Source of the DNA: Thioalkalivibrio sp. ALJ3
GTDB lineage: Bacteria; Pseudomonadota; Gammaproteobacteria; Ectothiorhodospirales; Ectothiorhodospiraceae
DNA: 64,000 nucleotides
Assembly (NCBI RefSeq): GCF_000377205.1
Contig: NZ_KB897906.1
Coordinates: forward strand, 340,272-404,271
Direction: 5' to 3'
Part shown: positions 3,340 through 50,855 of the stretch, piece after piece
Layout: every line of letters begins with the position of its first letter
Position numbering within the stretch: position 1 is the first letter of the stretch
Program-made: the position numbers and the translations under genes
Notes under the pieces: generated by a model
The model's input: the letters and a program-made list of their open reading frames with translations, nothing else
What the model was told of the DNA's origin: nothing
Databases searched by the model: none

Positions 3340-3388
3340 CCGCTTCCCTTCACCTGCGGTGGACCCGGCCGATGGCCGCCAGCAACGC

Positions 3389-3709
3389 TCAGTCGTGGAA
3401 AATGATGCGCGCGCCGGCGGGATCGATATCAATACGAGAGCCGGAATACTCGCAGGCGTCCGCGATGTCCTTCAGCCTAGGCATATCGTTGAGCTCGGCC
3501 AGCTTCCGCAGCAGGCCACTACCTTCGCAGTTGCGCTGCATCCCGCTGTCCGGGTCAGCGGTGCACCCGAACTCGCTGCCATCCACCGACCAGTCCATAC
3601 CCGATGGCATCATCAACACCACCGGCTCCTCGTGCATCACCTGGAACTTCACCCGTGCCGCGTTCTGTCCGTCCTGCCAGTCCACGGTCGGGATGTTATC
3701 GCTGGCCAT
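3389..3709 (-). CDS. Hypothetical acidic protein
   Basis: 106 aa, no family recognised. The protein is acidic with two cysteines about 25 residues apart plus one near the C-terminus, and no signal peptide or membrane segment. Start at 3709 is supported by AAGGAG 7 nt upstream; in-frame ATGs at 3775/3772 lack a ribosome binding site. It precedes the ABM-like gene on the same strand. Function unknown. Confidence 0.55.
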   Translation of the reverse strand: MASDNIPTVDWQDGQNAARVKFQVMHEEPVVLMMPSGMDWSVDGSEFGCTADPDSGMQRNCEGSGLLRKLAELNDMPRLKDIADACEYSGSRIDIDPAGARIIFHD

Positions 3710-3910
3710 GAGGTCACTCCTTCCCGGTATCTCGGGCAGTCCCACGAGGCCGTTATAGTTCGCGTGGGACATCATCCGGCCTTCCCTGTGACGCTAGACC
3801 CCCTTCCGACAATGCTCAAGCAGTGCCTGCCGATTGTCAGGCCTTGCGAGCTCATATCGAGACGCAACAATCATGTCTGCCGTTTTGCCATCCCGTTGCC
3901 ACGGCGACGT

Positions 3911-4391
3911 TTACGGCCGCACTGCGTTTTCAATCAGGGCTGCCATCTCATTGCCAACGGCTGCGATGGTGGTGGTGTCCCGTTCGCTGCGGGCAAAGAT
4001 CAAAGCCCCCTCAGACTGGAGGTGATGATCCAGGCCAGGGTGACGGCTCGCAACGGCCTGAAGCCCGCCGCTACAAGCGCATCCCGATACATCACCCTCC
4101 ATTCCTCGAAGCTGGCATGCCACCCTTCCGCGAGCGCGGACTCCTCCTCCAGCATATCCAGCACGATGGACGCCACCGGACAGCCCAACGCGTAGCCGGA
4201 CTCGCTGATCTCGCCCGCCGCCGCCTGAAAACACCTGCGAACCCCCTCGGCCGGGCCATGGGCACTTCCCAGACAATCCCGCAGCACCCGGCTTGCCTCC
4301 GCCACACCGGCCCGAACCGCCTCCAGGACCAAGTCATTCTTCCCGCCGGGAAAGTGGAAGTAGAGCGATCCGCGCGGCGCGCTGCTAGAAA
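3911..4391 (-). pseudogene. TetR/AcrR family regulator remnant (5' truncated and frameshifted)
   Basis: The frame ending at 4000 encodes the end of a TetR helix-turn-helix and the ligand domain (GSLYFHFPGGKNDLVLEAV, later GYALGCPVASIVLDM). It stops at the point where the family continues with an 'LEGAL' helix. That continuation (EGALIFARSERDTTTIA) is present in the -1/+2 frame and runs to 3911. One base appears lost at about 4007-4012, where CTGAGGGGG replaces an expected CTCGAGGGGG-like stretch. The first ~40 residues, including most of the DNA-binding domain, are missing; the coding homology ends at the repeat at 4392. Non-functional as a repressor. Confidence 0.75.
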
Positions 4392-4420
4392 CATGGGCGT
4401 CCCCTTCTTTCTTCTTTTTT
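4392..4420 (-). repeat. Short dispersed repeat, family B, diverged copy 2
   Basis: Plus strand CATGGGCGTCCCCTTCTTTC, two substitutions from the CATGGGTGTCCTCTTCTT core of the other copies, followed by a pyrimidine run. It sits exactly where the TetR pseudogene loses its 5' end, so it may mark the deletion or recombination breakpoint. Confidence 0.4.
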
Positions 4421-4490
4421 TGTCGCCCTTCTTTTGGTCGCAAGATGTGCCAGCCCCCCTGCTATGATGCCGCAAAGCAAAGGGGCGCCC

Positions 4491-5501
4491 ATGAGCAGCA
4501 AGATCATCGAAGTCGTCGGCCCGGCCGGGCATCTGGATACCGTACTGGGAATCGCCGACGGGCTGGCCGTCGATGTTCTCTGGCACGGGGTGGACGAGAA
4601 CCGTGACCGCATGGCCGTACACATGCTGGTCAGCACGGAATACCGCCAGCGCCTGCTGGACGACCTCTATCGTGTGCTGGGCGCGGTCGAGACCGCGCGC
4701 ATCATGGTCCTGCCGGTGGAGGCGGTCCTGCCCGACCCGCTGCAGGACTCCAGCGCCGACGAGAAGGATGCAGCACGCACCGGCAAGAAGGCCCGCGCAA
4801 TCTCGCGTGAAGAGCTCTACACCAACGTTGCAGGGGGCGCCGACCTCACCGGCCAGTTCGTCGTGCTGACGGTGCTGTCCACCATCGTCGCGGCCATTGG
4901 TCTGCTGGAGGACAACGTGGCCGTGGTGATTGGCGCGATGGTCATCGCTCCGCTGCTGGGTCCCAACCTGGCCCTGGCGCTGGGGACCTCCATGGCCGAT
5001 ACCCGGCTAATCGGACGCTCCCTGCGCACCAACCTGGTTGGACTCGGCGGAGCTATCCTGATCGGAATCCTGCTCGCCACTGTCACGTCGGTGGACGTCG
5101 GTGCGCGCGAACTGCAAATGCGCACCGAAGTCGGTCTCGACTCGGTCGCTCTCGCGCTGGCGTCCGGAGCCGCCGCAGTGCTGTCGCTCACCACCGGCCT
5201 GCCCACGGTTCTGGTCGGCGTGATGGTGGCCGTCGCCCTACTGCCGCCAGCCGCAACCGTTGGCATCATGCTCGGCTCCGGCGAGTTCTCCGCCGCCTAC
5301 ATGGCCTTCCTGCTACTGGCGGTCAACGTAGTGTGCGTGAACCTGTCGGCCAAGCTCGTGTTTCTCTATCAGGGGGTGCGCCCGCGCGGACGCGCTCAGC
5401 GGGAGGCCGCTGCGCAGAGCATGGCTGGCTATCTGCTGCTGTGGGCCGTCACCCTCGCCCTGCTGGTGTTTCTGATCCTGGAAGCCGACATCACACTGTA
5501 G
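4491..5501 (+). CDS. DUF389 / TIGR00341 family integral membrane protein
   Basis: 336 aa. An N-terminal ~110-residue soluble ferredoxin-like region (IIEVVGPAGHLDTV) is followed by at least seven hydrophobic segments. These include the conserved LLEDNVAVVIGAMVIAPLLGP and GVMVAVALLPPAATVG stretches that define DUF389. The family has no settled function. Start at 4491 follows AAGGGG; the frame is open to 4434 but without a ribosome binding site. It is divergent from the TetR pseudogene, which may once have regulated it. Confidence 0.85.
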   Translation: MSSKIIEVVGPAGHLDTVLGIADGLAVDVLWHGVDENRDRMAVHMLVSTEYRQRLLDDLYRVLGAVETARIMVLPVEAVLPDPLQDSSADEKDAARTGKKARAISREELYTNVAGGADLTGQFVVLTVLSTIVAAIGLLEDNVAVVIGAMVIAPLLGPNLALALGTSMADTRLIGRSLRTNLVGLGGAILIGILLATVTSVDVGARELQMRTEVGLDSVALALASGAAAVLSLTTGLPTVLVGVMVAVALLPPAATVGIMLGSGEFSAAYMAFLLLAVNVVCVNLSAKLVFLYQGVRPRGRAQREAAAQSMAGYLLLWAVTLALLVFLILEADITL

Positions 5502-35242: not shown

Positions 35243-37660
35243 GTGACAGGGAGATTCCGTATTGGCACGGCGTCGGGGCCAGGCAGTGGCCATACTCCGA
35301 CGCCGCACACACGCTCAACCTGGGTGATCGGGCTCGGGTTCACGGTTGTGCTGGTCCTGATGACGGTGATGATCGCCCTGGGGCTGAACCGCATGGCGCA
35401 GGTGCACGACCGTCTCGAACTGATCGTGCACGAACACAACGTCAAGACCGAGCTGCTCGGCAACATGCGCAATGCGGCGCGCGAACGGTCGGTCACCCTG
35501 CTCCAGTTGTCGATCACCACCGACCCCTTCGATCTCGACGAGGGGATCATGACGTTTCGCGGCCACGCATCGGATTTCATGGTCAACCGCCAGCAACTGG
35601 ATGCCATGCCGATGACCGCGGAAGAACAGAGACTGCTCGACGAGTCCCGCGGGCTGACCGAACGCGCAGTCGAGGTCCAGGAGCGCGTGCTCGACCTCAT
35701 TCTGGAAGGCCAGACGGAAGAAGCCACGAACTGGCTGCTCGCGGAGGCCATCCCGAAACAGGGACGGGTGCTCGAGCACCTGGACGCGATGATCGGGTTG
35801 CAGAAGGAGGCCAGTGTGGCCGCTGTGCGTGATACGGCACGGCAGTATCGTACCGCGGTCGTCCTGAAGCTGGTGCTCGGTGGCGCCGCGCTACTGATGG
35901 GGATGCTGATTACCCTGGGCGTGCTGCGGCATACGCGGCGAATCGAATCGGCCCTGTTCGAGGAGAAAGAGCGCGCCCAGGTCACGCTGCACGCCATTGG
36001 TGACGGCGTGATCACCACGGATCTGGAGGGCCGGATCGACTACCTCAACCCGGTCGCCGAACACCTGACGGGCTGGGACCAGGAAGCCGCTCGCGGTCAG
36101 CCGCTTTCACGCGTTTTTCACATCATCCGCGAGTCCACTGGCGAACGGCTCCATCATCCTTTGACCGAACGCCTGCCGGACGGCACGGCATGCACGCTCG
36201 ATCAGGAGGCCATCCTGATCTCGACTGAGGGGCGCGAGCATGCGATCGAGGAGGTCTCGGCCCCCATCCGTGACCGCGATGGCACCACCATTGGTGCGGC
36301 CCTGGTGTTCCGCGATGTTTCCCGGGCCCGCGAGATGGCGCGCGAACTGTCCTGGGCCGCCACCCACGACTGCCTGACCTCGCTGGCCAACCGCGCGGAG
36401 TTCGAACGCCGCCTCGCCCAGCTGGTGGCCACGGCCCACCAGGAAAACCGCGAGCACGCCCTGCTCTACATGGACCTGGACCAGTTCAAGCTGGTGAACG
36501 ATACCTGCGGGCACGGGGCCGGCGACGACCTGTTGTGCCAGTTGACCTCGCAGCTACACAGCCAGCTCCGCGAGAGCGACACCCTGGCCCGCCTCGGGGG
36601 CGACGAGTTCGGCGTGCTGCTGTCGAACTGCCCGCTCGTACAGGCGGAACGCATCGCGGAAAACCTGCGCGCGACGGTCGACAGCTACCGCTTCGAATGG
36701 CAGGGACGCATCTTTCGCGTAGGTATCAGCATTGGCGTGGTCCCGGTATTCGGACACACCAAGGATACCGCGCAGTACATGAGCGAAGCCGACGCCGCCT
36801 GTTATCTGGCCAAGGAGCAGGGACGCAATCGTATCCACGTCTCGCGCGCTGGCGACACCGAGCTGTCGCATTGTCAGGGCGAAATGAACTGTGTCCAGCG
36901 CATCACCTATGCGCTGCAGCACAATCGTTTCTGGCTGCATGGACAAAGAATCGTCCCCGTTTCCAGCGACGATCCCGCGCATACCGAGATCCTGCTGCGC
37001 ATGGTCGAAGACGATGGCACGGTGGTACTGCCGGCCACCTTCATTCCCGCCGCCGAACGCTACGGGCAAATGCCTGCGATCGACCGCTGGGTCATCAAAC
37101 GGGTGCTGAAGCACGTCGCCAACGACACCGATACCGAGGGTCACTTTGCCGTCAACCTGTCCGGGCACTCCCTGTGCGACCGCGGCATGCTGGACTACAT
37201 CGTCGAACAGCTCGAGCAAAGCGGCGTCGATCCCGGCCGTATCTGTTTCGAGATCACGGAGACCGCTGCCATCGCCAACCTGAGCCAGGCCAGCCGTTTT
37301 ATTCGCGTACTGCGCGGCCTGGGCTGCCAGTTCTCCCTGGATGACTTCGGCACGGGGATGGCCTCGTTCGGCTACCTCAAGACACTGAAGATTGACTACC
37401 TGAAGATCGATGGCAGCTTCGTACGCAACATGGCGGACGACCGCATCAGCCGAGCGATGGTCGAAAGCATTCACCACATTGGACGCGTGATCGGAGTCCA
37501 GACCATCGCGGAGTGTGTCTCGCACGAGAGCATGCTGGACTCCCTGCGGCTGGTTGGCGTGGACTATGCCCAGGGATTCGGGCTGCATCTTCCGGAACCC
37601 CTCGAGCCGTGCCCGGTGGTCGTCAAGGACAGCCCGCGTACCGGCTCGGTTGCCAACTGA
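35243..37660 (+). CDS. 4HB-PAS-GGDEF-EAL c-di-GMP signalling protein
   Basis: 805 aa, GTG start with AGGGAG upstream. TM1 at ~28-50, a periplasmic four-helix bundle ~52-210, TM2 ~212-235, PAS ~245-355, then GGDEF with intact ARLGGDEF. In the EAL domain the first motif reads EILLR (ExLxR kept) and DDFGTGMASFGYLK is intact, but the late loop is IAECVS, where active relatives usually have AE(G/F)VE. Likely an active cyclase with weakened or regulatory EAL (inference). 167 nt after the previous GGDEF-EAL gene. Confidence 0.88.
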   Translation: MTGRFRIGTASGPGSGHTPTPHTRSTWVIGLGFTVVLVLMTVMIALGLNRMAQVHDRLELIVHEHNVKTELLGNMRNAARERSVTLLQLSITTDPFDLDEGIMTFRGHASDFMVNRQQLDAMPMTAEEQRLLDESRGLTERAVEVQERVLDLILEGQTEEATNWLLAEAIPKQGRVLEHLDAMIGLQKEASVAAVRDTARQYRTAVVLKLVLGGAALLMGMLITLGVLRHTRRIESALFEEKERAQVTLHAIGDGVITTDLEGRIDYLNPVAEHLTGWDQEAARGQPLSRVFHIIRESTGERLHHPLTERLPDGTACTLDQEAILISTEGREHAIEEVSAPIRDRDGTTIGAALVFRDVSRAREMARELSWAATHDCLTSLANRAEFERRLAQLVATAHQENREHALLYMDLDQFKLVNDTCGHGAGDDLLCQLTSQLHSQLRESDTLARLGGDEFGVLLSNCPLVQAERIAENLRATVDSYRFEWQGRIFRVGISIGVVPVFGHTKDTAQYMSEADAACYLAKEQGRNRIHVSRAGDTELSHCQGEMNCVQRITYALQHNRFWLHGQRIVPVSSDDPAHTEILLRMVEDDGTVVLPATFIPAAERYGQMPAIDRWVIKRVLKHVANDTDTEGHFAVNLSGHSLCDRGMLDYIVEQLEQSGVDPGRICFEITETAAIANLSQASRFIRVLRGLGCQFSLDDFGTGMASFGYLKTLKIDYLKIDGSFVRNMADDRISRAMVESIHHIGRVIGVQTIAECVSHESMLDSLRLVGVDYAQGFGLHLPEPLEPCPVVVKDSPRTGSVAN

Positions 37661-39649: not shown

Positions 39650-39664
39650 CACTCTTTCAGAGTG
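39650..39664. promoter_or_regulatory. Inverted repeat, candidate upstream activator site
   Basis: CACTCT-TTC-AGAGTG, perfect 6-bp arms, about 130 bp upstream of the predicted sigma-54 start point. This is a usual distance for enhancer-binding protein sites. Confidence 0.4.
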
Positions 39665-39670
39665 TGGCCG

Positions 39671-39686
39671 AGTGATCTGTATCACA
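39671..39686. promoter_or_regulatory. CRP/Vfr-like operator
   Basis: AGTGATCTGTATCACA has GTGA-N6-TCAC, the core of the CRP family site (TGTGA-N6-TCACA). Centred about 108 bp upstream of the predicted start point. It could instead be an enhancer site for the local activator. Confidence 0.5.
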
Positions 39687-39759
39687 ACTGGCGCAGTTTG
39701 CGCCTCGTCATCATTCCACGAATCGTTCCAAGTCACTGTTCCTGCGAGGTTTCCATGTA

Positions 39760-39776
39760 TTGGCCTGACTCCTGCT
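39760..39776 (+). promoter_or_regulatory. Sigma-54 (-24/-12) promoter of the repeat-protein operon
   Basis: TTGGCCTGACTCCTGCT has GG and GC exactly 12 bp apart, with TTGGC at -24 and CTGC at -12 (consensus TGGCAC-N5-TTGC). It places the start point near 39787 and leaves a ~74-nt leader before the ATG at 39861. A sigma-54 activator is encoded in the same cluster, which strengthens the call. The rest of 39377-39860 holds no gene. Confidence 0.6.
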
Positions 39777-39860
39777 AGTGGTATGGCTACGTAGCGCGGT
39801 ACCTCGTACACCGGGGCTACGACAACCGTCTATTGCTAGCTAGCCAATGGAGACTTGACC

Positions 39861-40748
39861 ATGAACTTCAAAAAGACCCTGATTGCTTCCGCTGTCGCCC
39901 TGGCCTTCGGCCTGAGCTCGGGCCTGGCCCTGGCCAACCCGACCAATACCGCCGACGGCGAAGTCGGTGATCAAACCGCCACCGCCACCTCCTCGGCGGA
40001 CGGCGGCGGCGCCTCGGCGAACGAGTATTCCCAGGCGTTGGCGATTAACGACTCCGACCTGTCGAACAGCTCGGACAACAGCACCTCGATCTCGGATTCC
40101 GGGAACACCACGGTTTCGGATTCGGGCAATGACAGCTCGGATAACAGCCTCAATATCGCCGACTCCGGCAACGACAGCTCCGACAACAGCACCAACATCT
40201 CCGAGTCCGGCAACACCATGGTTTCGGACTCGGGCAACGACAACTCGGACAACAGCCTGAACATCTCCGACTCGGGGAATGACAGTTCCGACAACAGCAC
40301 CAACATCTCGGACTCCGGGAACGACAGTTCCGACAACAGTCTGAACATCTCGGATTCGGGTAACGACAACTCCGACAACAGCATGGCCCACGCGGACGAC
40401 AACAGCGCGGCCGCCAATAATGGCTCCACCGCCTCGGTGACCCGTGACCAGAGCGACAACTCGGACAACAGCCTGGCCATCATGGACTCCGGCAACAGCA
40501 CCGCGACCGACAGCTTCAACACAACGCTGCAGGTGAACGCCGTGGTCAGCCAGAACGAGCTGTCGGGTACCGTGACCGGGAACCATGTTGACGTTGCGCC
40601 CGAGGCGTCTCAGATGAGCTCCAACAGCATTGGGGCGGATTCCTTCGTGTCTCCGGCGGGGATTACCCAGGTGTCACAGAACAGTGGCGCCAACAGCCTG
40701 ACCCAGCAGCAGGTTTCGGTGCAGGCGCACCTGAACCTGGGCAACTAG
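39861..40748 (+). CDS. Secreted Asp/Ser/Asn-rich repeat protein, candidate fibre/amyloid subunit
   Basis: 295 aa. Signal peptide (LIASAVALAFGLSSGLALA, cleaved near 25). Residues ~65-175 are tandem repeats of a 14-residue unit, consensus SDSGNDSSDNS(L/T)NI, with two longer 22-residue versions that insert SGNTTV-like residues. The tail (~220-295) is different: QVNAVVSQNELSG and VSQNSGANSLTQQQVSVQ, Q/N-rich. No cysteine. Composition, export, the C39 peptidase neighbour and sigma-54 control recall FapC-type functional amyloids, but no direct homology can be shown here. GGAG precedes the ATG. Confidence 0.7.
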   Translation: MNFKKTLIASAVALAFGLSSGLALANPTNTADGEVGDQTATATSSADGGGASANEYSQALAINDSDLSNSSDNSTSISDSGNTTVSDSGNDSSDNSLNIADSGNDSSDNSTNISESGNTMVSDSGNDNSDNSLNISDSGNDSSDNSTNISDSGNDSSDNSLNISDSGNDNSDNSMAHADDNSAAANNGSTASVTRDQSDNSDNSLAIMDSGNSTATDSFNTTLQVNAVVSQNELSGTVTGNHVDVAPEASQMSSNSIGADSFVSPAGITQVSQNSGANSLTQQQVSVQAHLNLGN

Positions 40749-40771
40749 CCGACATACGTTGTCGGAACGGC

Positions 40772-40798
40772 ATGCGGCGGGGGTTTTCCCCGCCGCAT
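40772..40798 (+). terminator. Strong hairpin after the repeat-protein gene (attenuating)
   Basis: Perfect 11-bp stem ATGCGGCGGGG/CCCCGCCGCAT with loop GTTTT and only a weak pyrimidine tail. Likely a partial terminator or 3' stabiliser giving the first gene more mRNA than the rest of the operon. Confidence 0.65.
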
Positions 40799-40826
40799 TC
40801 TCCCTGCCATGCAAGAGGGTCCGGTC

Positions 40827-41216
40827 ATGTGTAATCCGTCAGCCCGTCGCGGCGGCATCGGTTCTGCCGCCTTTTTGTCCATCGGCATGATGCTGGCTGC
40901 GGGCGTTGCCCACGCCGACATGACGCCTGCCAGCACTCCCTCCCTCGAACTTGGCGCCGGGGAATACGAGGTGGTGGACATGGCCACCCTGGATGCACAG
41001 CGGGCACGTCAGGGCGTGACCAACATTCAGCTGGGCCAGATTCATTCGCGCATCGATCTGACCAACAACCAGGTCGTGAACTCCTCTACTGGCAGGAATC
41101 TGGTGGCGCCCGGGGCCTTTGACAACGCCCGCGGGATCTCCACGATCATCCAGAACAGCGGCAACAACGTTGCCATACAGGAATCCATGATCGTGAATAT
41201 CACGATCAATCCATGA
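40827..41216 (+). CDS. Small secreted partner protein of the repeat-protein cluster
   Basis: 129 aa. Signal peptide ending GVAHA (cleaved before DMTPAS). The mature part has ITNIQ-type and IIQNSGNNVAIQESMIVNI beta-strand-like Asn/Gln segments at the C-terminus, similar in flavour to curli/Fap minor subunits. Start 40827 has GAGGG 7 nt upstream; ATG 40809 is an alternative. Ends 10 nt before the C39 peptidase. Role as nucleator or minor subunit is inference. Confidence 0.6.
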   Translation: MCNPSARRGGIGSAAFLSIGMMLAAGVAHADMTPASTPSLELGAGEYEVVDMATLDAQRARQGVTNIQLGQIHSRIDLTNNQVVNSSTGRNLVAPGAFDNARGISTIIQNSGNNVAIQESMIVNITINP

Positions 41217-41226
41217 GGGAGCCTCG

Positions 41227-41934
41227 ATGCGAACCCGCCGATGGTTCCCTGCATTGATCATCGCAGCCACACTGGCGCTTTCTCCGGGCTTGTCGGCCTG
41301 GGCCAGCGGGGCTCAGTTTCCCGGCGTAATCGGCAGCATGAATGTGCCCGTGGAAAGCCTGAAAGACCTTCGCTTTCGCTCGATCGTGCCACAGCGATAC
41401 GACTTCAGCTGCGGCTCCGCGGCCCTCGCCACTCTGCTGACCTACCATTACGACCGACCGACCACCGAGGTCGAGACCTTTGACAGCATGTTCCGGCGCG
41501 GTGACCAGGATCTGATACGCGAGCAGGGCTTCTCCATGCTCGACATGAAACACTACCTGGAGGCCGACCAGGGCCTCCCGGCCGACGGCTTTCGCATCGG
41601 GCTCGACGACCTCGAGAACCTCGGCGTGCCGGCGATCGCGATGATCGAGACCCGCGGCTACCGTCATTTCGTAGTAATCAAGGGGCTCAAGGACGGCCAG
41701 GTTCTGGTGGGCGACCCGGCACTGGGGGTCAACAGCTATACCCGAAACGAATTTCAGCGGGTCTGGATCAACGACATCCTGTTTATCATCCGCGAGGATG
41801 TGGACCTTGCCCGGTACCGCTTCAATGCCTCGGAAACCTGGGCCGCCGTCACCCGGGCCCCGATCGAATCGGGCGTCGTGCGCAGCGATCTGGCGAGCTT
41901 TACGCTGAATCTGCCCCGCGCCGGGCAGTGGTGA
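41227..41934 (+). CDS. Exported C39-family cysteine peptidase (FapD-like)
   Basis: 235 aa. Signal peptide to ~residue 27, then a C39 domain with catalytic Cys62 (YDFSCGSAALATLL), His147 (GYRHFVVIKG) and Asp163 (VGDPALG). C39 peptidases normally cut double-glycine leaders; exported stand-alone versions such as FapD are part of functional amyloid export loci. It has no transporter domains of its own. Stop overlaps the possible GTG of the next gene (GTGA), so the genes are coupled. Confidence 0.85.
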   Translation: MRTRRWFPALIIAATLALSPGLSAWASGAQFPGVIGSMNVPVESLKDLRFRSIVPQRYDFSCGSAALATLLTYHYDRPTTEVETFDSMFRRGDQDLIREQGFSMLDMKHYLEADQGLPADGFRIGLDDLENLGVPAIAMIETRGYRHFVVIKGLKDGQVLVGDPALGVNSYTRNEFQRVWINDILFIIREDVDLARYRFNASETWAAVTRAPIESGVVRSDLASFTLNLPRAGQW

Positions 41935-41942
41935 CCCGCGAG

Positions 41943-42446
41943 ATGAACCCGATAAACCGTTTCCCCTGCAGCGTCCTCCTGGCCATCGTACTGGGCTGGA
42001 CATGGCCGGTGGCCGGTCAAGCGCTCGATGCCCTGCCCCCAAGCGACGACTACCGCGTGGTGCCGGACACGGTACTGGAGGCCCAACGTGGCGGCTTCTT
42101 CGGACGCGACGGCCTGGAGATCTCGTTCGGACTGGAACAGATCACGTCCCTCAACGGCGAGGTGATCCATCAGTCGACGCTGCGCCCCCTGAGCGATCTC
42201 GCGAGCGGCGGCGGCCGGCCCGGCGGCGAGCTGCGATCGGTCGTGATCCAGACCGGTGGCGCGATGCCCGTGGAAAACTGGAGCTCCGGCATGGGATGGG
42301 TGACCGCGATTCAGAACGAACTCGACGGGCAGGACATTCGTCACCAGACCATCCTGCAACTGGAGCTGGGCAACCTGCAAATGCCACGCGGCGACCTCAG
42401 CCGGGCGCTGGAACAGCAAATGCTCGAACGCGGCGGGGGCTTCTGA
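41943..42446 (+). CDS. Exported protein of unknown function in the Fap-like cluster
   Basis: 167 aa. Hydrophobic signal segment SVLLAIVLGWTWPVAGQALD. The mature protein begins DDYRVVPDTVLEAQRGGFF and includes EISFGLEQITSLNGEVIHQ; similar 'VLxxQRGGF' openings occur in small exported proteins near such clusters. GTG codons at 41928/41931 overlapping the previous stop are alternative starts. No known family recognised. Convergent with the outer-membrane protein gene. Confidence 0.6.
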   Translation: MNPINRFPCSVLLAIVLGWTWPVAGQALDALPPSDDYRVVPDTVLEAQRGGFFGRDGLEISFGLEQITSLNGEVIHQSTLRPLSDLASGGGRPGGELRSVVIQTGGAMPVENWSSGMGWVTAIQNELDGQDIRHQTILQLELGNLQMPRGDLSRALEQQMLERGGGF

Positions 42447-42468
42447 CCCCCCGCCACGGCAATGTCCC

Positions 42469-43518
42469 TCAGAAACGGATCGGCACCCGCAGGGTCGCCT
42501 GGACATCCGGGGCCGCCTCGGTCGCCCCTACCCCGAGGGAGAAGTTGACACTGGTGCGATCCGTCAACCGGTGCGAGATCCCCCACAGTACGGTCCCGAC
42601 CTGGCGCCGCCCGAACACGGGTTCAAGTCCGCTGTCGTTTTCCACCCGCGTGCGGAACACCGTGCTGTGGTCATACCCGAAGCTCATCGAAGTGCGGTCA
42701 TTCAGGCTGATGGCCATCCCCAGGCTCATCCCGACGGCATCGCCGGGATTGACCTTGCCATAGCCATCACCCACATCGCGCTCGATATTCCAGAGATAGC
42801 TGACATTGGCAAAGATGACCGCCGGGTCGGTGGGATAGATCATCGTCACACTGGGCTGGATGCTCCAGAACCCGGAACCCGTGGGCTGCTCCAGGAAGAT
42901 CTCGCCCAGGCGATTACCCTCGTCGTCCAGAATCTCGCGGCGGGCTACGTCGAAGGGCCCCTTCCCGGTCGTACTCTTGGCCTTGAGGTTGCCGATAAAG
43001 AATGGCCGACCACGATCCGCCATGTTGAACTGGTAGGAAAGACCGAATTCGATATCGCCCAGTCCCTGCCCGGTGGAGCCGGTCACGCGCTCCAGCGCGG
43101 TCGCCTCGAGGATGTCGCGCCTGCGCACCTGCTGCTCACGGTAGACATAAGGGATCTTCATCCCCACCTCGAGCCGCTCGGTCACGCCATACCGGAAGCT
43201 TACGGCCGCGGTCAGCGTGTCGCGCTCTGTCTCGCTGACATCAATCAGGCCAATCGCCAGGGCCGGAACGATGGTGAACCCCTCGATTGATACATCCAGC
43301 GAGCTGCTGTGAACGTACGACAAGGACGGTTCTATTACCCACTGCCCCTTCGGCGTGAGCACGCCACGCTCCGCGAACACGGTCACCTCGGGACCTGAAT
43401 CGACCGGGGCATCCCCGACGGCCTCTCGTCCCTCCTGACTCATGGCCGGCCCGGCCAGCCCCCAGCATAGAGGCACGACCCCCAACCCACTCCACTTGAT
43501 CCATCGCTTGTCCACCAT
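42469..43518 (-). CDS. Outer-membrane beta-barrel protein
   Basis: 349 aa. Signal peptide (GVVPLCWGLAGPAMSQ), then alternating amphipathic strands (WVIEPSLSYVHSS, TAAVSFRYGVTERLEVGMKI, SMSFGYDHSTVF). The protein ends in Phe (VPIRF), the outer-membrane insertion signature. It resembles the MetA/'transporter' barrel families. In this cluster it is the best candidate for the outer-membrane exporter, in the role FapF plays in Pseudomonas (inference). Start 43518 has GGAG 5 nt upstream. 64 nt after the activator gene on the same strand, probably cotranscribed. Confidence 0.7.
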   Translation of the reverse strand: MVDKRWIKWSGLGVVPLCWGLAGPAMSQEGREAVGDAPVDSGPEVTVFAERGVLTPKGQWVIEPSLSYVHSSSLDVSIEGFTIVPALAIGLIDVSETERDTLTAAVSFRYGVTERLEVGMKIPYVYREQQVRRRDILEATALERVTGSTGQGLGDIEFGLSYQFNMADRGRPFFIGNLKAKSTTGKGPFDVARREILDDEGNRLGEIFLEQPTGSGFWSIQPSVTMIYPTDPAVIFANVSYLWNIERDVGDGYGKVNPGDAVGMSLGMAISLNDRTSMSFGYDHSTVFRTRVENDSGLEPVFGRRQVGTVLWGISHRLTDRTSVNFSLGVGATEAAPDVQATLRVPIRF

Positions 43519-43582
43519 CGTTCTCCATGGCCCCAAGGGCCGAACCGTTACGCAAGGGCCATCCTCTTCCCCTACACAACCT

Positions 43583-45037
43583 TCACGGTGCGTCGGAACG
43601 CAGCCCGTGCTTGGCGAGCAAGCGGTAGAGCGTCATCCGGCCCACCCCCAACTGGCGTGCGGCCCGCGAGACGTTGTTGTCGCACTGGCCAAGCGCCTTG
43701 ATGAGCAATTCCCGTTCGGCATTCGATCGCGCCTCGGCAAGCGTCGGTGGCTTCTCGGCCTGGGCCGGCACCGCGGCCAGTCCAAGATCCTCCGGACGAA
43801 TCAGGCGTCCTTCCGCCATCGTGACCGCACGCCGCACACGATTGACCAGCTCGCGGACGTTGCCGGGCCAGCTGTAGGCGTGCATCGCCTGCCACGCGGC
43901 CTGGGTAAAGCCGCGCAAACGGGGGTTCTGACGACGAAACTGATCGAAGTAAAAACGTCCCAGCTCTTTCAGGTCCGTGCCCCGCTCACGCAGAGGAGGC
44001 ACATCGAGCTGGATCACATTCAGGCGGTAATAGAGGTCCTGCCGAAACCGACCGGTTTCGACGGCCTTGTCGAGCGCAACGTGGGTCGCCGCGAGGACGC
44101 GTACATCCACCTTGATGGACTGTAGTCCACCGAGCCTGACCAGCGTCCCTTCCTGCAGAAAGCGGAGCAGATTGACTTGAAGATCCAGGCTGAGGTCGCC
44201 GATCTCGTCCAGCAGCAAGGTACCGCCATGCGCCAGCTCGAACTGCCCGATCTTGCGACGTCCTGCTCCGGTAAAGGCACCTGCCTCGTGCCCAAACAGC
44301 TCCGACTGGATCAGTTGTGCCGGCAAGGCGCCACAATTAACCGCGACGAACGGCCCGTTAGCCCGCCGCGAGTGCCGGTGTACCGCCAGCGCGGCCAGCT
44401 CCTTCCCGGTCCCGCTCTCTCCCTGAAACAGCACTGGCGCCTCGGAGCCGGCCACCCGTTCAATCTGACGGGCTAACGCCTGCATGGCAGGGCTGTGCCC
44501 GATAATAGGGATCGCATCTCCCGGCTCTGCATCCCGAGTCGGGCGCACAGGCCGTGCCTCCAGAGCCGCCATACCGCAGGCCCGCCCAAGGGTGATCTCA
44601 AGGCGCGCCTGGTCCAGTGGCAGAGTATGGAAGTCGTAACAGGACTCGCGGATCAGCTCGCGAACGTCATCGTGCAACAGTAAATCCGGGTGCACCAGCG
44701 CAATCCACTTCACGTGCTGGTGCGTGTGAACAAGCTCGGTGGCCCAGGGCGGTACCGGGCTCCCCAGGTCCAGGAGCCCAACCCGGATCTTGTCCAGCAC
44801 CTCGCCGGAAGACCCGGCCGGGCGCGGCACATGGGTCAGCTTCCAGGCATCCGAAAGGCCCGCGAGCGAGTCGCATGCACATCCCCCCGCGTCCATCCAC
44901 GCCACTTCGCGCACCATGGAGGTCGCGCAGGCGCGCTGCAGCGCATAACGCGATCCGTCGGCATCCCCCCGGGGCAGGAAACCCCCACCATCCACCGACC
45001 GCAAAAAGGAACCGTTCAACCTTCGCGATCCGGCCAT
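43583..45037 (-). CDS. Sigma-54-dependent enhancer-binding activator (VpsR-like)
   Basis: 484 aa. N-terminal ~170 residues form a degenerate receiver-like domain (VGLLDLGSPVPPW, IALVHPDLLLHDDV) like VpsR. The AAA+ domain has GESGTGKE (206-213), the sigma-54 contact loop GAFTGA (253-258) and Walker B LLLDEIGD, and the C-terminus is a Fis-type HTH (NNVSRAARQLGVGRMTLYRLL). No clear phospho-Asp pocket is seen, so control by ligand (VpsR binds c-di-GMP) is plausible. Likely drives the promoter at 39760. Start at 45037 chosen; ATG 45106 possible. Confidence 0.88.
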   Translation of the reverse strand: MAGSRRLNGSFLRSVDGGGFLPRGDADGSRYALQRACATSMVREVAWMDAGGCACDSLAGLSDAWKLTHVPRPAGSSGEVLDKIRVGLLDLGSPVPPWATELVHTHQHVKWIALVHPDLLLHDDVRELIRESCYDFHTLPLDQARLEITLGRACGMAALEARPVRPTRDAEPGDAIPIIGHSPAMQALARQIERVAGSEAPVLFQGESGTGKELAALAVHRHSRRANGPFVAVNCGALPAQLIQSELFGHEAGAFTGAGRRKIGQFELAHGGTLLLDEIGDLSLDLQVNLLRFLQEGTLVRLGGLQSIKVDVRVLAATHVALDKAVETGRFRQDLYYRLNVIQLDVPPLRERGTDLKELGRFYFDQFRRQNPRLRGFTQAAWQAMHAYSWPGNVRELVNRVRRAVTMAEGRLIRPEDLGLAAVPAQAEKPPTLAEARSNAERELLIKALGQCDNNVSRAARQLGVGRMTLYRLLAKHGLRSDAP

Positions 45038-46775: not shown

Positions 46776-47291
46776 TTATTCACCTGCCTTTTCGAGCAGC
46801 TCCTTCAGACGGCCTTCGTTCGCCGCGGTGTGGATGCCGGTGACGGTGCCCTCGCCGTCGAGCAGGATGACGGTGACCTCTTCCGGAGTATGCGGCATAA
46901 AGCCCGCGTCCTCTTCCGAGCGAGTAATCGCGGTGGGGTACTCGCGTGCCTGCATGCGAGGCAGGACGACGTTTTCCATCACATGCGGCGGCATCTGATG
47001 AATATCGGCGATATAGATCACCCCGATTTCATTGCGTTGTTCTTCTGTCATTTCACCCAGAACGGCATTGGCGATATCCGCCGGGGCCATCTCCACCGTC
47101 TTGAGGATGACGCGCGCCGCGCCCGGGATCTGTAGCGGGTTCCCGTGTTGATCGTTCAGTGTGCGCTCGGGGAAGGTCTCGCCCTCGACGACGTCATCGG
47201 CCGAGGCCTCGACGCCACCCTCGCAGCCCGCCAGCAGCAGGGTCGAGGTGGCAAACAGGGCGGCAAGCAAAAGTGCGGGCAATCGTGTCAT
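46776..47291 (-). CDS. Thioredoxin-fold lipoprotein lacking CxxC (YtfJ-like)
   Basis: 171 aa. Lipobox LLLAGC. FPERTLNDQHGNPLQIPG and VTVILLDGEGTVTGIHTAANE are thioredoxin-fold elements like YtfJ/peroxiredoxin relatives, but no active cysteine pair exists after the lipid cysteine. Role unknown. GGAG-type site precedes 47291; the upstream frame to 47450 is not needed. Confidence 0.65.
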   Translation of the reverse strand: MTRLPALLLAALFATSTLLLAGCEGGVEASADDVVEGETFPERTLNDQHGNPLQIPGAARVILKTVEMAPADIANAVLGEMTEEQRNEIGVIYIADIHQMPPHVMENVVLPRMQAREYPTAITRSEEDAGFMPHTPEEVTVILLDGEGTVTGIHTAANEGRLKELLEKAGE

Positions 47292-47394
47292 GGGGATTCC
47301 TCCAGGGCTGTGAATCAATGCGCGCCGCGAACAACCGGACGTACGCGGCAAACGCCGCCGATGGTAACGCATCCATTGCGCCAGTAGACTGCAG

Positions 47395-47691
47395 GGGAAA
47401 CACTGGTCCATGTACACGCTCGCGCTCGAGTCGCTTTTGCGTGCGAACAAGGCGCGGCGACTGCCGTGCAGTCATTCTGCACAAAGGAGCCGCAACGCCG
47501 TGCGCGCGCCCGTTTTTGATGACAACGGGCGGCCGAGCCCCTGCATTGAATGGTTTGTGGGGTTGGTACCCCAGGTTCCCCGATCCTGCGTTGCGCCGCT
47601 TGCGGGTAGAACCACTACCCGCTGCGCGACACGCCTTGTCTCGGAAAACCTGGGGTACCAACGCGAGCGTGTACATGGACCAGTGTTTCCC
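47395..47691. mobile_element. MITE-like element with 30-bp terminal inverted repeats
   Basis: A 30-bp perfect inverted repeat (outer end GGGAAACACTGGTCCATG) at 47395-47424 and 47662-47691 encloses 237 bp with no gene. Nested inside are a 16-bp inverted pair (GTTGGTACCCCAGGTT at 47562-47577 / 47647-47662) and a hairpin GCGGGTAG-AACCA-CTACCCGC (47602-47622). The segment 47590-47640 is a second copy of the repeat at 39427-39478. It sits just upstream of the arabinose-lipid operon. Confidence 0.65.
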
Positions 47692-47716
47692 TACGCGAAT
47701 TTCCAAGGGCCCGCCG

Positions 47717-48592
47717 ATGGTTCAGCCACTGATCAAACTGCTGCGGCCGCACCAGTACATCAAGAACGGGTTTGTCCTGCTGGGCGTCGTGTTCGCCCAC
47801 GAGTGGGAACCGGCGATGCTGCTGGCCGCCGGGGTCGCCTTTGTCGCGTTTTGTGCAATGGCGAGTGCCGTTTATGTACTGAACGACATCGTCGACGTCG
47901 AGGCCGACCGCCAGCATCCGGTCAAGCGCCACCGGCCCATTGCCAGCGGGGCCATTCCGGCCAGTACCGCCTGGGCGATCTTTGCAACGCTGGTGGTGGT
48001 CGCGCTCGTACTGGCGGCGTTGGTCAGCACCGGCGTGACCGCACTCGTGCTTGCCTACCTGGTGCTGAACGTCGCCTACTCCTGGTGGCTGAAGCATGTC
48101 GTCATCCTGGATGTGTTCAGCATCTCGGCGGGCTTCATGCTGCGCATCCTGGCCGGCACGCTCGGCCTCGGGATCGAACCCTCGCAGTGGCTGCTGCTGT
48201 GCGGCCTGATGCTCACGCTGTTTCTTGGCTTCGCCAAGCGCCGTGCGGAACTGGCGGATACCGCGATCGAGCGGTCCCCCGAGCGCGAGGGCCCGCGCCG
48301 TGTACTCAATGACTACAGCGTGGGCCTGGTGGACCAGTTCATCGCGATCAGCGCAGCCTGCACGGTCCTGGCGTACGGGCTTTATACGGTCAGTGCACAG
48401 ACGATCGACCTGCACGGCACCGACGGGCTGATCTACACCCTGCCGCTCGTAATCTACGGCATCTTCCGCTACCTGTTCCTGCTGCACGCCCGAGGCGGGG
48501 GCAACGACACCTCGCGCGACCTGGTCACCGACCCGCACCTGCTCGCGACGGTCGCTGTCTGGCTGGGCGTCACCATCGTCGTACTCGCATGA
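47717..48592 (+). CDS. UbiA-family decaprenyl-phosphate phosphoribosyltransferase
   Basis: 291 aa. Membrane prenyltransferase with the first Asp motif NDIVDVEADRQHP and about nine helices. The opening LIKLLRPHQYIKNGFVLLG and later SWWLKHVVILDVFSISAGF are typical of DPPR synthases (mycobacterial Rv3806c) rather than quinone UbiA. It would attach phosphoribose from PRPP to a polyprenyl phosphate. The DprE1/DprE2 genes downstream support this. Next gene overlaps by 4 nt. Confidence 0.85.
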   Translation: MVQPLIKLLRPHQYIKNGFVLLGVVFAHEWEPAMLLAAGVAFVAFCAMASAVYVLNDIVDVEADRQHPVKRHRPIASGAIPASTAWAIFATLVVVALVLAALVSTGVTALVLAYLVLNVAYSWWLKHVVILDVFSISAGFMLRILAGTLGLGIEPSQWLLLCGLMLTLFLGFAKRRAELADTAIERSPEREGPRRVLNDYSVGLVDQFIAISAACTVLAYGLYTVSAQTIDLHGTDGLIYTLPLVIYGIFRYLFLLHARGGGNDTSRDLVTDPHLLATVAVWLGVTIVVLA

Positions 48593-49560
48593 GCGCAGTG
48601 CTGCTGTCCGGCTGGCGCATGCGGGCCGTGATGCTCTCCGTAATCGCGGCGGTCGTGCTGTATCTCGGAGTTGCGCTGTGGGCGGGGGCCACCGAGGTCT
48701 GGCATGCCCTCACCCTCGTGGGGATCGGCGGCCTGCTGCTGGCACTGTCGCTCTCATTGGTGAACTATTCGCTGCGTTTCACGCGCTGGCAGCTCTACCT
48801 GCGCCGCCTGGGTCACCACGTGCCCCTGCGCGGGAGCGCGCACATCTACCTGGCGGGGTTCGCCCTGACCACCACCCCCGGAAAGACGGGCGAGGCGCTG
48901 CGCGGGGTGCTCCTGAAGCGACGCCATGTTCCCTATCCCGACAGCTTCGCGGCCTTTGTCAGCGAGCGTCTGTCGGATCTGATCGCGGTCGTGCTGCTGT
49001 CGATGCTGGGCTTCACCCTGGTGGTCAAGGGTGGCTGGCTGATCCTCGCCGGGGCCAGCGCGGTGGCGCTCGCGCTGGTCATCCTGTCGTGGCGCCGACC
49101 ACTTGCGCGGCTGCAGGCGTGGACGGACCGACCCGGCCAGCGTCTGTGGCGGACCATTCATCACCTGGCGACCGTCCTCCTGCAGGCCCGCCGCTGCCAT
49201 CGTCCGGCCCTGCTGGCCGGGACGACCCTGCTGAGCGTGGTCGCCTGGAGCGCAGAGGCGCTCGCCTTCTGGTGGATCCTCAACGCGATGGGCTTCGAGG
49301 CCAGCTTTGCCTTCGCCGCATTCGTGTTCGCGCTGGCGATGCTGGCCGGCGCGCTGAGCTTCCTGCCCGGCGGGCTCGGCGGGACCGAGGCCGTGATGGT
49401 CGGCCTGTTGCTGCTGCACGACATGCCCGCAGCCGATGCGGTTGCCGCGACCATGCTGATCCGCTTCACGACCCTGTGGTTTGCGGTCATCCTGGGCCTG
49501 ATTGCACTGGGCACCAACCCCGAGGCCCGCGGCCGCGAACAACCGGAGGCTACGGCATGA
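48589..49560 (+). CDS. Flippase-like membrane protein (UPF0104/YbhN, LPG-synthase TM family)
   Basis: 323 aa, about eight transmembrane helices. Family marks: LRFTRWQLYLRRLGHHV, LTTTPGKTGEALRGVLLKRR, FLPGGLGGTEAVMVGLLL. Members are proposed lipid-linked sugar flippases; in this operon it may move polyprenyl-phosphoryl-pentose across the inner membrane (inference). ATGA overlaps at both ends. Confidence 0.75.
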   Translation: MSAVLLSGWRMRAVMLSVIAAVVLYLGVALWAGATEVWHALTLVGIGGLLLALSLSLVNYSLRFTRWQLYLRRLGHHVPLRGSAHIYLAGFALTTTPGKTGEALRGVLLKRRHVPYPDSFAAFVSERLSDLIAVVLLSMLGFTLVVKGGWLILAGASAVALALVILSWRRPLARLQAWTDRPGQRLWRTIHHLATVLLQARRCHRPALLAGTTLLSVVAWSAEALAFWWILNAMGFEASFAFAAFVFALAMLAGALSFLPGGLGGTEAVMVGLLLLHDMPAADAVAATMLIRFTTLWFAVILGLIALGTNPEARGREQPEATA

Positions 49561-50855
49561 CCACGAGCTGGAACCGCATCCCGCGTGTCGCGCACGCCGC
49601 CGAGGTCTCCCTGACCCGGCGCGGCCAGCCCCTGCCCGAGGCTGCGCACCCGCTGCTGGCCCACGCCCTCGGCCGTAGCTACGGCGACGTCTGCCTGAAT
49701 CCCGGCGGGACCCTGCTGCATACCCGAGACCTCGACCGCTTCATCACCTTCGACACGGACACCGGCCGCATTACCGCCGAGGCCGGTCTGACCCTCGACG
49801 ACTTGCTGCGCTTCGCGGTCACGCGCGGCTGGTTCGTGCCGGTGGTACCCGGCACACGCTTTGTCACACTCGGAGGCGCCGTGGCCAACGACGTGCACGG
49901 CAAAAATCACCACCATGCCGGCAGCTTTGGCGAGCATGTCCGCGCCCTGACCCTGCGCCGCTCCAACGGCGAATGCCTCGAAGTGACCCCCGACGGCACT
50001 CCAGACTGGTTCGCCGCGACCGTCGGCGGGCTCGGGCTGACCGGCCTGATCGAGACGGTCACGCTGCAACTCATTCCCGTGCGCACCCCCTGGATGCGCG
50101 CCTGGTCGCAGCGCTTCGACAGCCTGGACGAGTTCTGGGAACTGGACGCCCGGGCCGAGCGCGAATGGCCCTACACCGTCGCCTGGATCGACTGCCTGAA
50201 CCCGGGCCCGCGCGGCGAGGTCGGGCGCGGCATCTACAGCGGGGCACGCCATGCGACCACCGCACCGGCACGCAGCCGATACCGGGAGCCCCGCCGCGCC
50301 ATCCCGCTGGACCCGCCAGTGTCACTGGTCAACCGCGTGACCCTGCGGCTGTTCAACCAGCTCTATTTCCGCCAGTCCGTACACCCGACCGCCCGCGCCG
50401 TCCATCACCTGCCCTGGCTCTTCCCGCTGGACGCGATCCGCCACTGGAACCGCATCTACGGGTACAAGGGCTTTTACCAGTACCAGTGCGTACTGCCTCC
50501 GCATGCGCAGAAGGACGGCATGCAGGCGCTGCTCGATACCGTGGCCGCCAGCGGCCAGGGTTCGTTCCTCGCCGTGCTCAAGCGCTTCGGGGATCGCGCG
50601 GGACCGGGGATGCTGTCATTCCCCCGACCCGGCGCGACCCTGGCGCTGGATTTCCCCGATCGCGGCAACGACACCGAGCACCTGTTCCGGCGCCTGGACC
50701 GCATCGTGCAGGAAGCCGGCGGCGCGCTGTATCCGGCCAAGGATGCGCGCATGTCACCCGAGCTGTTCCGCAGCGGCTTTCCCCGCTGGGAGGAGTTCGC
50801 TAGCTTTGTCGACCCCGAATTCTCCTCCGGCTTCTGGCGCAGGGTAACCAAATGA
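49557..50855 (+). CDS. dprE1: Decaprenylphosphoryl-beta-D-ribose 2'-oxidase
   Basis: 432 aa FAD enzyme (VAO fold). GRSYGD (39-44) and GGAVANDVHGKNHHHAGSFG (106-125) match mycobacterial DprE1 closely. C-terminal YPAKDARMSPELF carries the conserved Lys. Oxidises the ribose 2'-OH as step one of epimerisation to arabinose. At the position of the M. tuberculosis benzothiazinone target Cys387 this protein has Ala363 (TLALDFP). Coupled by ATGA overlaps to its neighbours. Confidence 0.9.
   Translation: MTTSWNRIPRVAHAAEVSLTRRGQPLPEAAHPLLAHALGRSYGDVCLNPGGTLLHTRDLDRFITFDTDTGRITAEAGLTLDDLLRFAVTRGWFVPVVPGTRFVTLGGAVANDVHGKNHHHAGSFGEHVRALTLRRSNGECLEVTPDGTPDWFAATVGGLGLTGLIETVTLQLIPVRTPWMRAWSQRFDSLDEFWELDARAEREWPYTVAWIDCLNPGPRGEVGRGIYSGARHATTAPARSRYREPRRAIPLDPPVSLVNRVTLRLFNQLYFRQSVHPTARAVHHLPWLFPLDAIRHWNRIYGYKGFYQYQCVLPPHAQKDGMQALLDTVAASGQGSFLAVLKRFGDRAGPGMLSFPRPGATLALDFPDRGNDTEHLFRRLDRIVQEAGGALYPAKDARMSPELFRSGFPRWEEFASFVDPEFSSGFWRRVTK

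Follow-up and report, generated by a model that had tools for sequence, protein, structure and literature searches.

A Fap-related export locus in Thioalkalivibrio sp. ALJ3: a probable sister branch of a functional-amyloid system, with a leader motif shared with FapE

The window studied here, a stretch of 64,000 nucleotides from Thioalkalivibrio sp. ALJ3 (contig NZ_KB897906.1), carries six adjacent genes, named A to F, in which a secreted repeat protein stands beside an exported C39 peptidase and an outer-membrane barrel. The question that this locus raises is whether it makes an unrelated kind of fibre or belongs with Fap, the functional-amyloid system of Pseudomonas (fapABCDEF). Our results suggest that the best explanation as a whole, which we consider probable, is a sister branch of the Fap export system, working as proposed below. 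The six genes, together with a sigma-54-type box, were confirmed at 39761-45037 of the window, with the following features.

39761-39776, plus strand: sigma-54-type -24/-12 box, TGGCCTGACTCCTGCT, 84 bp before the start codon of A, best match upstream of A
39861-40748, plus strand: gene A, 295 amino acids, secreted repeat protein, candidate main fibre subunit, Sec-type signal by eye
40041-40388, plus strand: repeat region of A, 14-residue Asn/Ser/Asp repeats with a unit like DSGNDSSDNSLNIS
40623-40745, plus strand: C-terminal Fap-type repeat of A, NSIGADSFVSPAGITQVSQNSGANSLTQQQVSVQAHLNLGN, with a profile match to the C-terminus of B
40827-41216, plus strand: gene B, 129 amino acids, small exported protein with a leader-like motif and one Fap-type repeat
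40974-41009, plus strand: leader-type motif of B, VDMATLDAQRAR, proposed C39 recognition site with diverged last positions
41227-41934, plus strand: gene C, 235 amino acids, exported C39 peptidase, FapD homologue by profile
41943-42446, plus strand: gene D, 167 amino acids, exported FapE-like protein
42060-42095, plus strand: leader motif of D, VPDTVLEAQRGG, followed by F; double-glycine type, proposed C39 cleavage site
42469-43518, minus strand: gene E, 349 amino acids, FapF-type outer-membrane barrel without the N-terminal coiled coil
43583-45037, minus strand: gene F, 484 amino acids, sigma-54-dependent activator with a VpsR-type N-terminal domain

A preliminary description of this DNA had listed a repeat protein, a small protein, a C39 peptidase, another exported protein, a barrel and an activator, and this layout stood. 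The products of A to E have Sec-type N-termini, the signal peptides being assigned by eye and hydropathy score. Relatives came from one scan of species genomes with short peptide patterns of C (69 loci) and from a FapD-family search of 274 genomes of the class, 40 of which matched; the 30 loci fetched from the latter were 12 canonical Fap, 9 of the window type (own genome included) and 9 others. Linkage was counted in 31 loci of the window type (L001-L023 and L101-L108). The gene neighbourhood, whose conservation had been named as a check, held: the matches to B, C and D are consecutive in 31/31 loci and E is in view in 30/31 (25 on the opposite strand, 5 on the same strand), the sole locus without it stopping at the contig end. 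F was seen in 21/31 loci. A was recognised by hidden Markov model (HMM) in 23/31; this HMM probably misses low-complexity copies, and an exported open reading frame (ORF) occupies the place of A in those inspected. The host genome is 2.63 Mb, and its closest relatives by peptidase C are Thioalkalivibrio. A relative of C at E 1e-10 was found in 18 of the 47 genomes of the family, with a patchy distribution inside the genus, and window-type relatives are also found in two sphingomonads, a Thauera and a Myxococcota metagenome-assembled genome (MAG).

C and E are identified by their profiles as homologues of FapD and FapF, and the Fap-like export locus of the preliminary description is upheld in this respect. 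C matched Pfam Peptidase_C39 (E 1.4e-17), NCBIfam FapD (E 1.3e-43, 148.8 bits, the equivalog cut-off of 330 not being reached) and NCBIfam FilB (E 2.7e-40, 138.5 of 475 bits, below the curated cut-off). Its Cys, His and Asp, which had been called intact, are indeed so: Q56, C62, H147 and D163 are invariant across 26 aligned proteins from both branches. In a search with the C profile, the closest solved structures were double-glycine protease domains from AMS/PCAT transporters (6mpz, 6.1e-13). In a tree of 98 C39 proteins (midpoint root, several long branches; L024 and L070 unlabelled; L088, the own duplicate, and L092, which is interrupted, left out of the tree), the window type formed one clade (31 rows, support 100/99) and canonical Fap the other (57 rows, support 99/93). 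Under midpoint rooting the two are sisters, and a third type of locus (L093-L100, with other C39 and FapF-type barrel genes) falls outside both. Dueholm et al. (2013, PMC3792158) noted that matches to the FapD and FapF HMMs lie mostly outside curated Fap loci and took these proteins as parts of two larger families. On the tree and profiles, the window locus is a member of this larger FapD/FapF family, as the sister clade of Fap.

The barrel E matched NCBIfam FapF at 6.3e-43 over profile positions 116-420 of 420, far below the curated cut-off, and FilC at 3.7e-17 (62.7 of 630 bits, below the curated cut-off). A phmmer search of the PDB with E alone found FapF 5o67 at E 2.6e-31 across residues 48-348. 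The predicted model of E (predicted local distance difference test, pLDDT, 76; predicted template modelling score, pTM, 0.71) had FapF chains at ranks 1-18 of its structural matches, the best being 5o65 (E 2.6e-21, template modelling, TM, score 0.83 by target length), and the next match was the COG4313 channel 4rl8 (TM 0.66 by target length). Since rows of canonical FapF were part of the alignment behind this model, its resemblance to FapF is not wholly independent evidence, as the phmmer search from a single sequence is. Single-chain structure prediction supported the barrel and gave a disordered model for A, as discussed later.

The periplasmic coiled coil of FapF was not found in E, as judged from the start of the NCBIfam FapF match at profile position 116 and from motif spacing. 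The barrel motif of E begins ~50 residues from the Met, which leaves no room for the coiled coil. The gap between position 22 and the barrel motif is 20-38 residues in the Thioalkalivibrio, Marinobacter, Halomonas icarae and L021 proteins measured and 98-161 residues in Thauera and two sphingomonads (the Kineobactrum value, with its match inside the barrel, was unused, and the motif had no match in canonical proteins). Because the coiled coil is reported, in a passage of PMC6173795, to be essential for FapF-mediated secretion, we regard its absence as a real difference from FapF. A small exported coiled-coil protein is encoded between D and E, next to a coil-bearing E, in L105 (4176-4634), L106 (5309-5749) and L108 (7070-7570), and is absent from the window.

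The subunits had been described as unrelated in sequence to those of Fap. The Pfam scan up to E 1 gave a chance match only for A and none for B or D, no NCBIfam model up to E 1 was matched by A, B or D, and the A profile found a chance match only (E 0.36) among solved structures. The NCBIfam cut-offs are exceeded by FapA, FapB, FapC and FapE of P. lundensis (L028), which served as the control. In the proposed HMM check against Fap and curli, C and E matched Fap families, A, B and D matched none, and no curli family was found. Profile-to-profile comparison was made with 40 column-shuffled nulls for each pair. The profiles were made from 20 A (without L008, L018 and L023), 22 B (without L023), 22 D, 45 FapE and 120 of the 173 distinct FapB/C repeats. 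They support a chain of homology among subunits that would run A-B-D-FapE-FapB/C: the scores were 29.9 for A-B (null maximum 13.8), 42.9 for B-D (15.2), 54.6 for D-FapE (16.8) and 33.2 for FapE-FapB/C (13.1), with further links for B-FapE (33.1; 20.9), A-D (20.0; 10.7) and B-FapB/C (16.5; 11.2). B and D look related to each other on these profiles.

The 14-residue repeat of A was confirmed: in residues 61-176, picked by eye, the autocorrelation reached 0.53 at lag 14, whereas the maximum in 2000 shuffles was 0.37. The number and sequence of the units vary between relatives, and the middle of A is Gly-rich in Halomonas icarae, Thauera and L021. The mature protein contains 39 Asp+Glu against 1 Lys+Arg, and Cys is absent. 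Two relatives, L084 and L085, bridge the gap to Fap. In the position of A they carry four tandem Fap-type units like NTIKDNAFQxASGITQVQQNNGSNNAMQQGVAVSAN, and the A of the window ends with one such unit. The A HMM matched these four-repeat proteins at 1.4e-17 (L084) and 4.1e-29 (L085), and the canonical FapB/C HMM weakly matched the A of L084 (5.2e-5) and a second copy in L102 (4.2e-6). From these relatives and matches, A is therefore best read as a Fap-type subunit whose linker may have expanded into acidic 14-residue repeats. Since D, A and B share Fap-type blocks and the bridging relatives exist, we read the locus as a sister branch of Fap; the unrelated new class of fibre suggested by the preliminary description was rejected.

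D carries V/L-x4-L-x3-R-G-G-F after its signal peptide. With the signal peptides removed, the block common to D and FapE scored 45.9 across 33 columns (null maximum 18.8, 0/60 as good). L/M-x3-R-[G/A]-G was found in 22/22 D, and the next residue is F in 21/22 D and F or Y in 40/46 FapE. When 19 of the 22 D were aligned, only the columns R49 and G51 were invariant and L45, G50, F52 and N125 nearly so. With corrected starts, a strict motif (GG or GA) was found in 19/22 D (0.023 in shuffled sequences) and a relaxed one in 21/22 (0.205); among 20 assigned motifs the last two residues are GG in 19 and AG in 1. The FapE proteins, from 45 canonical loci and L024, had the relaxed motif in 46/46 (0.154), ending RG-R/K in each, and the strict one in 0/46; B had the relaxed motif in 20/22 (0.136) and the strict one in 4/22. 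In further loci, which were not used to define the motif, the relaxed form was found in 12/12 FapE (0.234) and the strict form in 7/8 D (0.010), the eighth (L083) having VSETKLDDMRGG outside the scanned stretch. Controls from the first motif scan, made before the signal-peptide starts were corrected, gave the relaxed motif in 0/16 A (0.012), 8/70 C (0.114), 3/67 E (0.094) and 8/90 FapB/C (0.045). The motif ends at residues 47-69 in all D other than two, and at residues 38-64 in 45/46 FapE and at 71 in one. One D of Marinobacter matched the NCBIfam FapE model at E 0.12 only. The Marinobacter D motif, LSDPELSEYRGG, agrees with the published C39 consensus to the letter.

According to passages of PMC6363468, the site recognised by ComA-type peptidases is Leu(-12)-x3-Glu(-8)-Leu(-7) followed by Gly-Gly/Ala/Ser, and a hydrophobic groove of the LahT peptidase takes up residues -4, -7 and -12 of the leader. 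The characters of a C39 double-glycine substrate, hydrophobic residues at -12 and -7 and small ones at -2/-1 before the cut, were found in D only; FapE and B depart at -1. In the case of canonical Fap, the FapD cysteine is required for FapC secretion (PMC5557850). PMC5557850 and PMC6173800 describe the target of FapD as unclear or still to be determined, and according to them Fap proteins have no canonical C39 sites. A 2022 review (PMC9268375) still calls the role of FapD unclear. A passage of a 2025 review (PMC12822426) gives the N-terminus of FapE and the periplasmic region of FapF as the parts that FapD is thought to process, and names no site. The idea that FapE is cut is thus already published; the shared motif, its register and the link to B and D are what is added here.

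In L101, the FapF-like E (3715-4968) has a leader-type motif, VSSADLDTQRGG, between coil and barrel, a position that would suit a barrel which is its own C39 peptidase's substrate. A small neighbour in the same locus, FapA-like by eye, bears LSAQELGEVSGA.

The sigma-54 control named in the preliminary description is supported by the family. A weighted scan against base shuffles (leaving out L015, L018, L023 and L101-L108) found a -24/-12-type box 84-107 bp before A in 15/20 upstream regions, namely the window, five Thioalkalivibrio, L007, Halomonas icarae and seven Marinobacter, with p 0.09 in the window, which is weak alone, and <=0.06 in the other 14. The strict sigma-54 pattern gave 5 matches across the window where 9.5 were expected, none of them upstream of A. 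F matched Sigma54_activat (8.2e-69), VpsR (2.1e-14) and HTH_8 (1.1e-10) in Pfam and contains the GAFTGA letters, as had been stated, and an rpoN gene is present in the genome. The parts of a sigma-54-dependent operon, an enhancer-binding protein (EBP), a -24/-12 promoter and rpoN, were thus all found. A large 4HB_MCP-PAS-GGDEF-EAL protein is encoded at 35243-37657, ~2 kb upstream of the locus, and together with the VpsR domain of F it suggests a possible link to cyclic di-GMP. The fap operon is described in a passage of PMC6173800 as encoding no regulatory proteins; in canonical fap loci of Pseudomonas and Trinickia we observed a sigma-54 activator gene beside fapF (L028 8864-10249, L048 8882-10537, L042 9391-10899).

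On these sequence comparisons, the sigma-54-type promoter, the FapD-like C, the FapF-type E, the FapE-like D, and B and A can be taken as established. We further infer cleavage by C, the amyloid nature of the products and their surface exposure, and the locus probably works like Fap. In the mechanism that we propose, F and RpoN would switch on A-B-C-D, and all four proteins would cross the inner membrane by Sec. Periplasmic C would bind the leader of D, L(-12)..L(-7)..R-G-G, which follows the signal peptide, as well as the variant of this leader in B, and would cut after the second glycine like the cytoplasmic C39 domains of ATP-binding cassette (ABC) transporters. Trimmed D and B would then leave, together with A, through the barrel E. 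Outside the cell, the Asn/Gln-rich repeats of A may stack as amyloid-like hairpins with B and D as minor subunits, and the acidic 14-residue repeats of A may stay exposed as a flexible hydrated coat. For Fap-type systems in general, we lean, by a little, towards a two-step tag for export, made up of a Sec signal and, behind it, a leader of the double-glycine type, with a free periplasmic C39 peptidase recognising FapE/D, B and partners in other C39-plus-barrel loci, and with the P1 residue of canonical Fap shifted from Gly to Arg/Lys.

Several results weigh against the sister-branch explanation. The comparison of A with FapB/C was marginal (13.6; null maximum 13.1), and those of A with FapE (10.8; null maximum 16.2, 11/40 shuffles equal or better) and of D with FapB/C (6.7; null maximum 12.2, 29/40 equal or better) were negative. 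Without the leader motif, D-FapE fell to 16.5 (null maximum 18.8, 1/60 as good), which is not significant; the detectable homology of D and FapE is therefore the leader and its immediate sequel. The motif was noticed in the D, B and FapE families before it was counted and the members are related, so the counts show conservation and not independent origin. GG is absent from all FapE, where position -1 is R in 29/46 and K in 17/46; in the motif-bearing B it is R in 16/20. Because of these residues a plain GG cut fails to explain FapE and B. The relaxed motif was found in B of 4/8 further loci only (0.133), although two of the four misses (L084, L085) scored the wrong ORF, and the D motif ends as far in as residue 183 in L011 (Thauera) and 92 in L008 (Halomonas icarae). 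That FapE is the one protein described as lacking mass-spectrometry peptides from its N-terminal ~70 residues (PMC5557850) speaks for the explanation, but this gap extends past the motif in most FapE, so that the motif, which ends earlier, accounts for part of it only; trypsin would also hide a cut in FapE because the motif there contains R/K. No box was found near the expected place in 5/20 upstream regions (L011, L012, L016, L017, L021). The coiled coil that PMC6173795, in its passage on FapF, holds essential is absent from E, and the predicted model of A is disordered (pLDDT 33.8).

Among the other explanations, the one that survives best is that the locus is merely a diverged canonical Fap and should bear that name, which is a naming matter and not a mechanistic rival. 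We find it doubtful. The two share a periplasmic C39 peptidase, a FapF-type barrel, a FapE-like gene directly after the peptidase gene, Asn/Gln-rich repeat subunits with Fap-type repeats in A and B, and the leader motif of FapE/D. On the other hand, the NCBIfam scores are far under the equivalog cut-offs, the window type is a separate clade in the C39 tree, the barrel gene is inverted, with E and F on the opposite strand, and an EBP gene is inside the cluster. The last motif residue is G in D and R/K in FapE, and A has one recognisable Fap-type repeat beside its acidic repeats and no Cys. The canonical FapB/C HMM, grown from a canonical FapB, matched 90 ORFs in canonical loci and 0 in L001-L024, and NCBIfam found no FapA in a search confined to the six proteins of the locus; the missing FapA/FapB pair of the preliminary description is in keeping with this. 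FapB/FapC, FapA and the coiled coil of FapF were looked for and not found, and for this reason we did not file the locus under canonical Fap.

It is unlikely, in our judgement, that the product is a non-amyloid hydrophilic secreted polymer or adhesin, in which A would be a disordered acidic spacer anchored at the barrel or matrix through its C-terminal hairpin and the Fap-like parts would have been recruited for export only. The disordered model would fit such a polymer, and so would the near absence of Lys/Arg from this very acidic protein and the exchange of its middle between Asn/Ser/Asp and Gly-rich repeats. The Fap-type repeat common to the C-terminus of A and to B, however, and the four tandem copies at the A position of L084/L085, fit a stacking subunit.

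That the L..L..RG motif is not cut but serves as a docking helix seems quite improbable to us. C would then chaperone D and B to the barrel, as do the proteolytically dead C39-like domains of some type I systems, and the R/K at P1 of every FapE and R in most matched B, unusual for a narrow S1 site, would be accounted for, with positions -7, -12 and -3 largely kept. Yet the catalytic C62, H147 and D163 are kept in all 26 aligned proteins, the assigned D motifs end in GG or, once, AG, and the active-site cysteine is needed for secretion in canonical Fap (PMC5557850). Finally, a COG4313-type substrate-uptake channel with incidental secreted neighbours, for which the weak Pfam call of E as Phenol_MetA_deg and the rank of 4rl8 directly after FapF could be cited, is hardly credible and was rejected, because the structural ranking favours FapF and E accompanies B-C-D in all loci but the one at a contig end.

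The locus can also be compared with other systems. In the Fil pilus system of Acinetobacter (FilA, FilB C39, FilC barrel; mentioned in passing in PMC11784438), FilB and FilC resemble C and E by NCBIfam models, the sole basis of this comparison, but C and E score lower than for FapD/FapF, the scores fall below the FilB/FilC cut-offs and A, B and D match no NCBIfam model up to E 1. In the third type of locus the C39 gene likewise adjoins the barrel gene, with no match to A, B or D. In seven such loci with wide flanks, inspection by eye showed LSxxQLDxxxAG-like leaders in exported proteins encoded just ahead of C (L109 and L112) or on the other strand (L115); L110, L111 and L114 showed none, and L113 had a near-match only. 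The C39 domains of PCAT/AMS transporters (LahT, PCAT1, ComA) share the catalytic domain family and the leader consensus L(-12)..L(-7)..GG (passages of PMC6363468), whereas C is free, Sec-exported and without an ABC transporter, and its proposed leaders lie behind a Sec signal.

Curli exports small Asn/Gln-rich subunits via an outer-membrane channel. Its likeness to the window locus is in functional idea only, and neither Pfam nor NCBIfam showed a curlin-repeat or CsgG-type family for any of the six proteins.

Some neighbouring features were also observed. The Myxococcota MAG (L018) has three similar tandem exported Asn-rich proteins ahead of B and C (3363-5395). In Marinobacter changyiensis (L023, 5887-6441) the C39 gene is shortened, query residues 23-165 being matched, and the locus looks degenerate; an in-frame TGA interrupts the C39 gene in L092 and L115. 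Downstream in the window, at 47159-50852, genes for a UbiA-type prenyltransferase, an LPG-synthase-TM-type protein and a flavin adenine dinucleotide (FAD)-binding oxidase follow consecutively, presumably reminiscent of arabinose-lipid donor genes.

A literature search on Fap with Thioalkalivibrio, Marinobacter or Halomonas found no paper on such loci among the papers listed. Thioalkalivibrio, Marinobacter and Thauera are unnamed in the main text of Dueholm et al. (2013, PMC3792158; term search) and in that of a 2018 review, whose 25 further Fap genera are listed in a figure and supplement outside that text. The 2025 GTDB census retained only clusters with FapBC_repeat homology (PMC12392863), a filter that would exclude most of the window branch. 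The 2018 list or the 2025 census may include members of this branch, the four-repeat ones in particular.

The locus widens the range of Fap-type systems, in which the middle of the subunit would extend from Asn/Ser/Asp repeats to Gly-rich ones to four Fap-type repeats. The near-textbook double-glycine leader of this diverged branch makes the weaker form in FapE recognisable, and the question of cleavage becomes one that can be tested with peptides. If the two-step tag is true, the suspected relation of FapD and FapE would be pinned to a defined site of recognition, and the leader code of C39 peptidases in bacteriocin ABC exporters would serve as a periplasmic gate for amyloid secretion.

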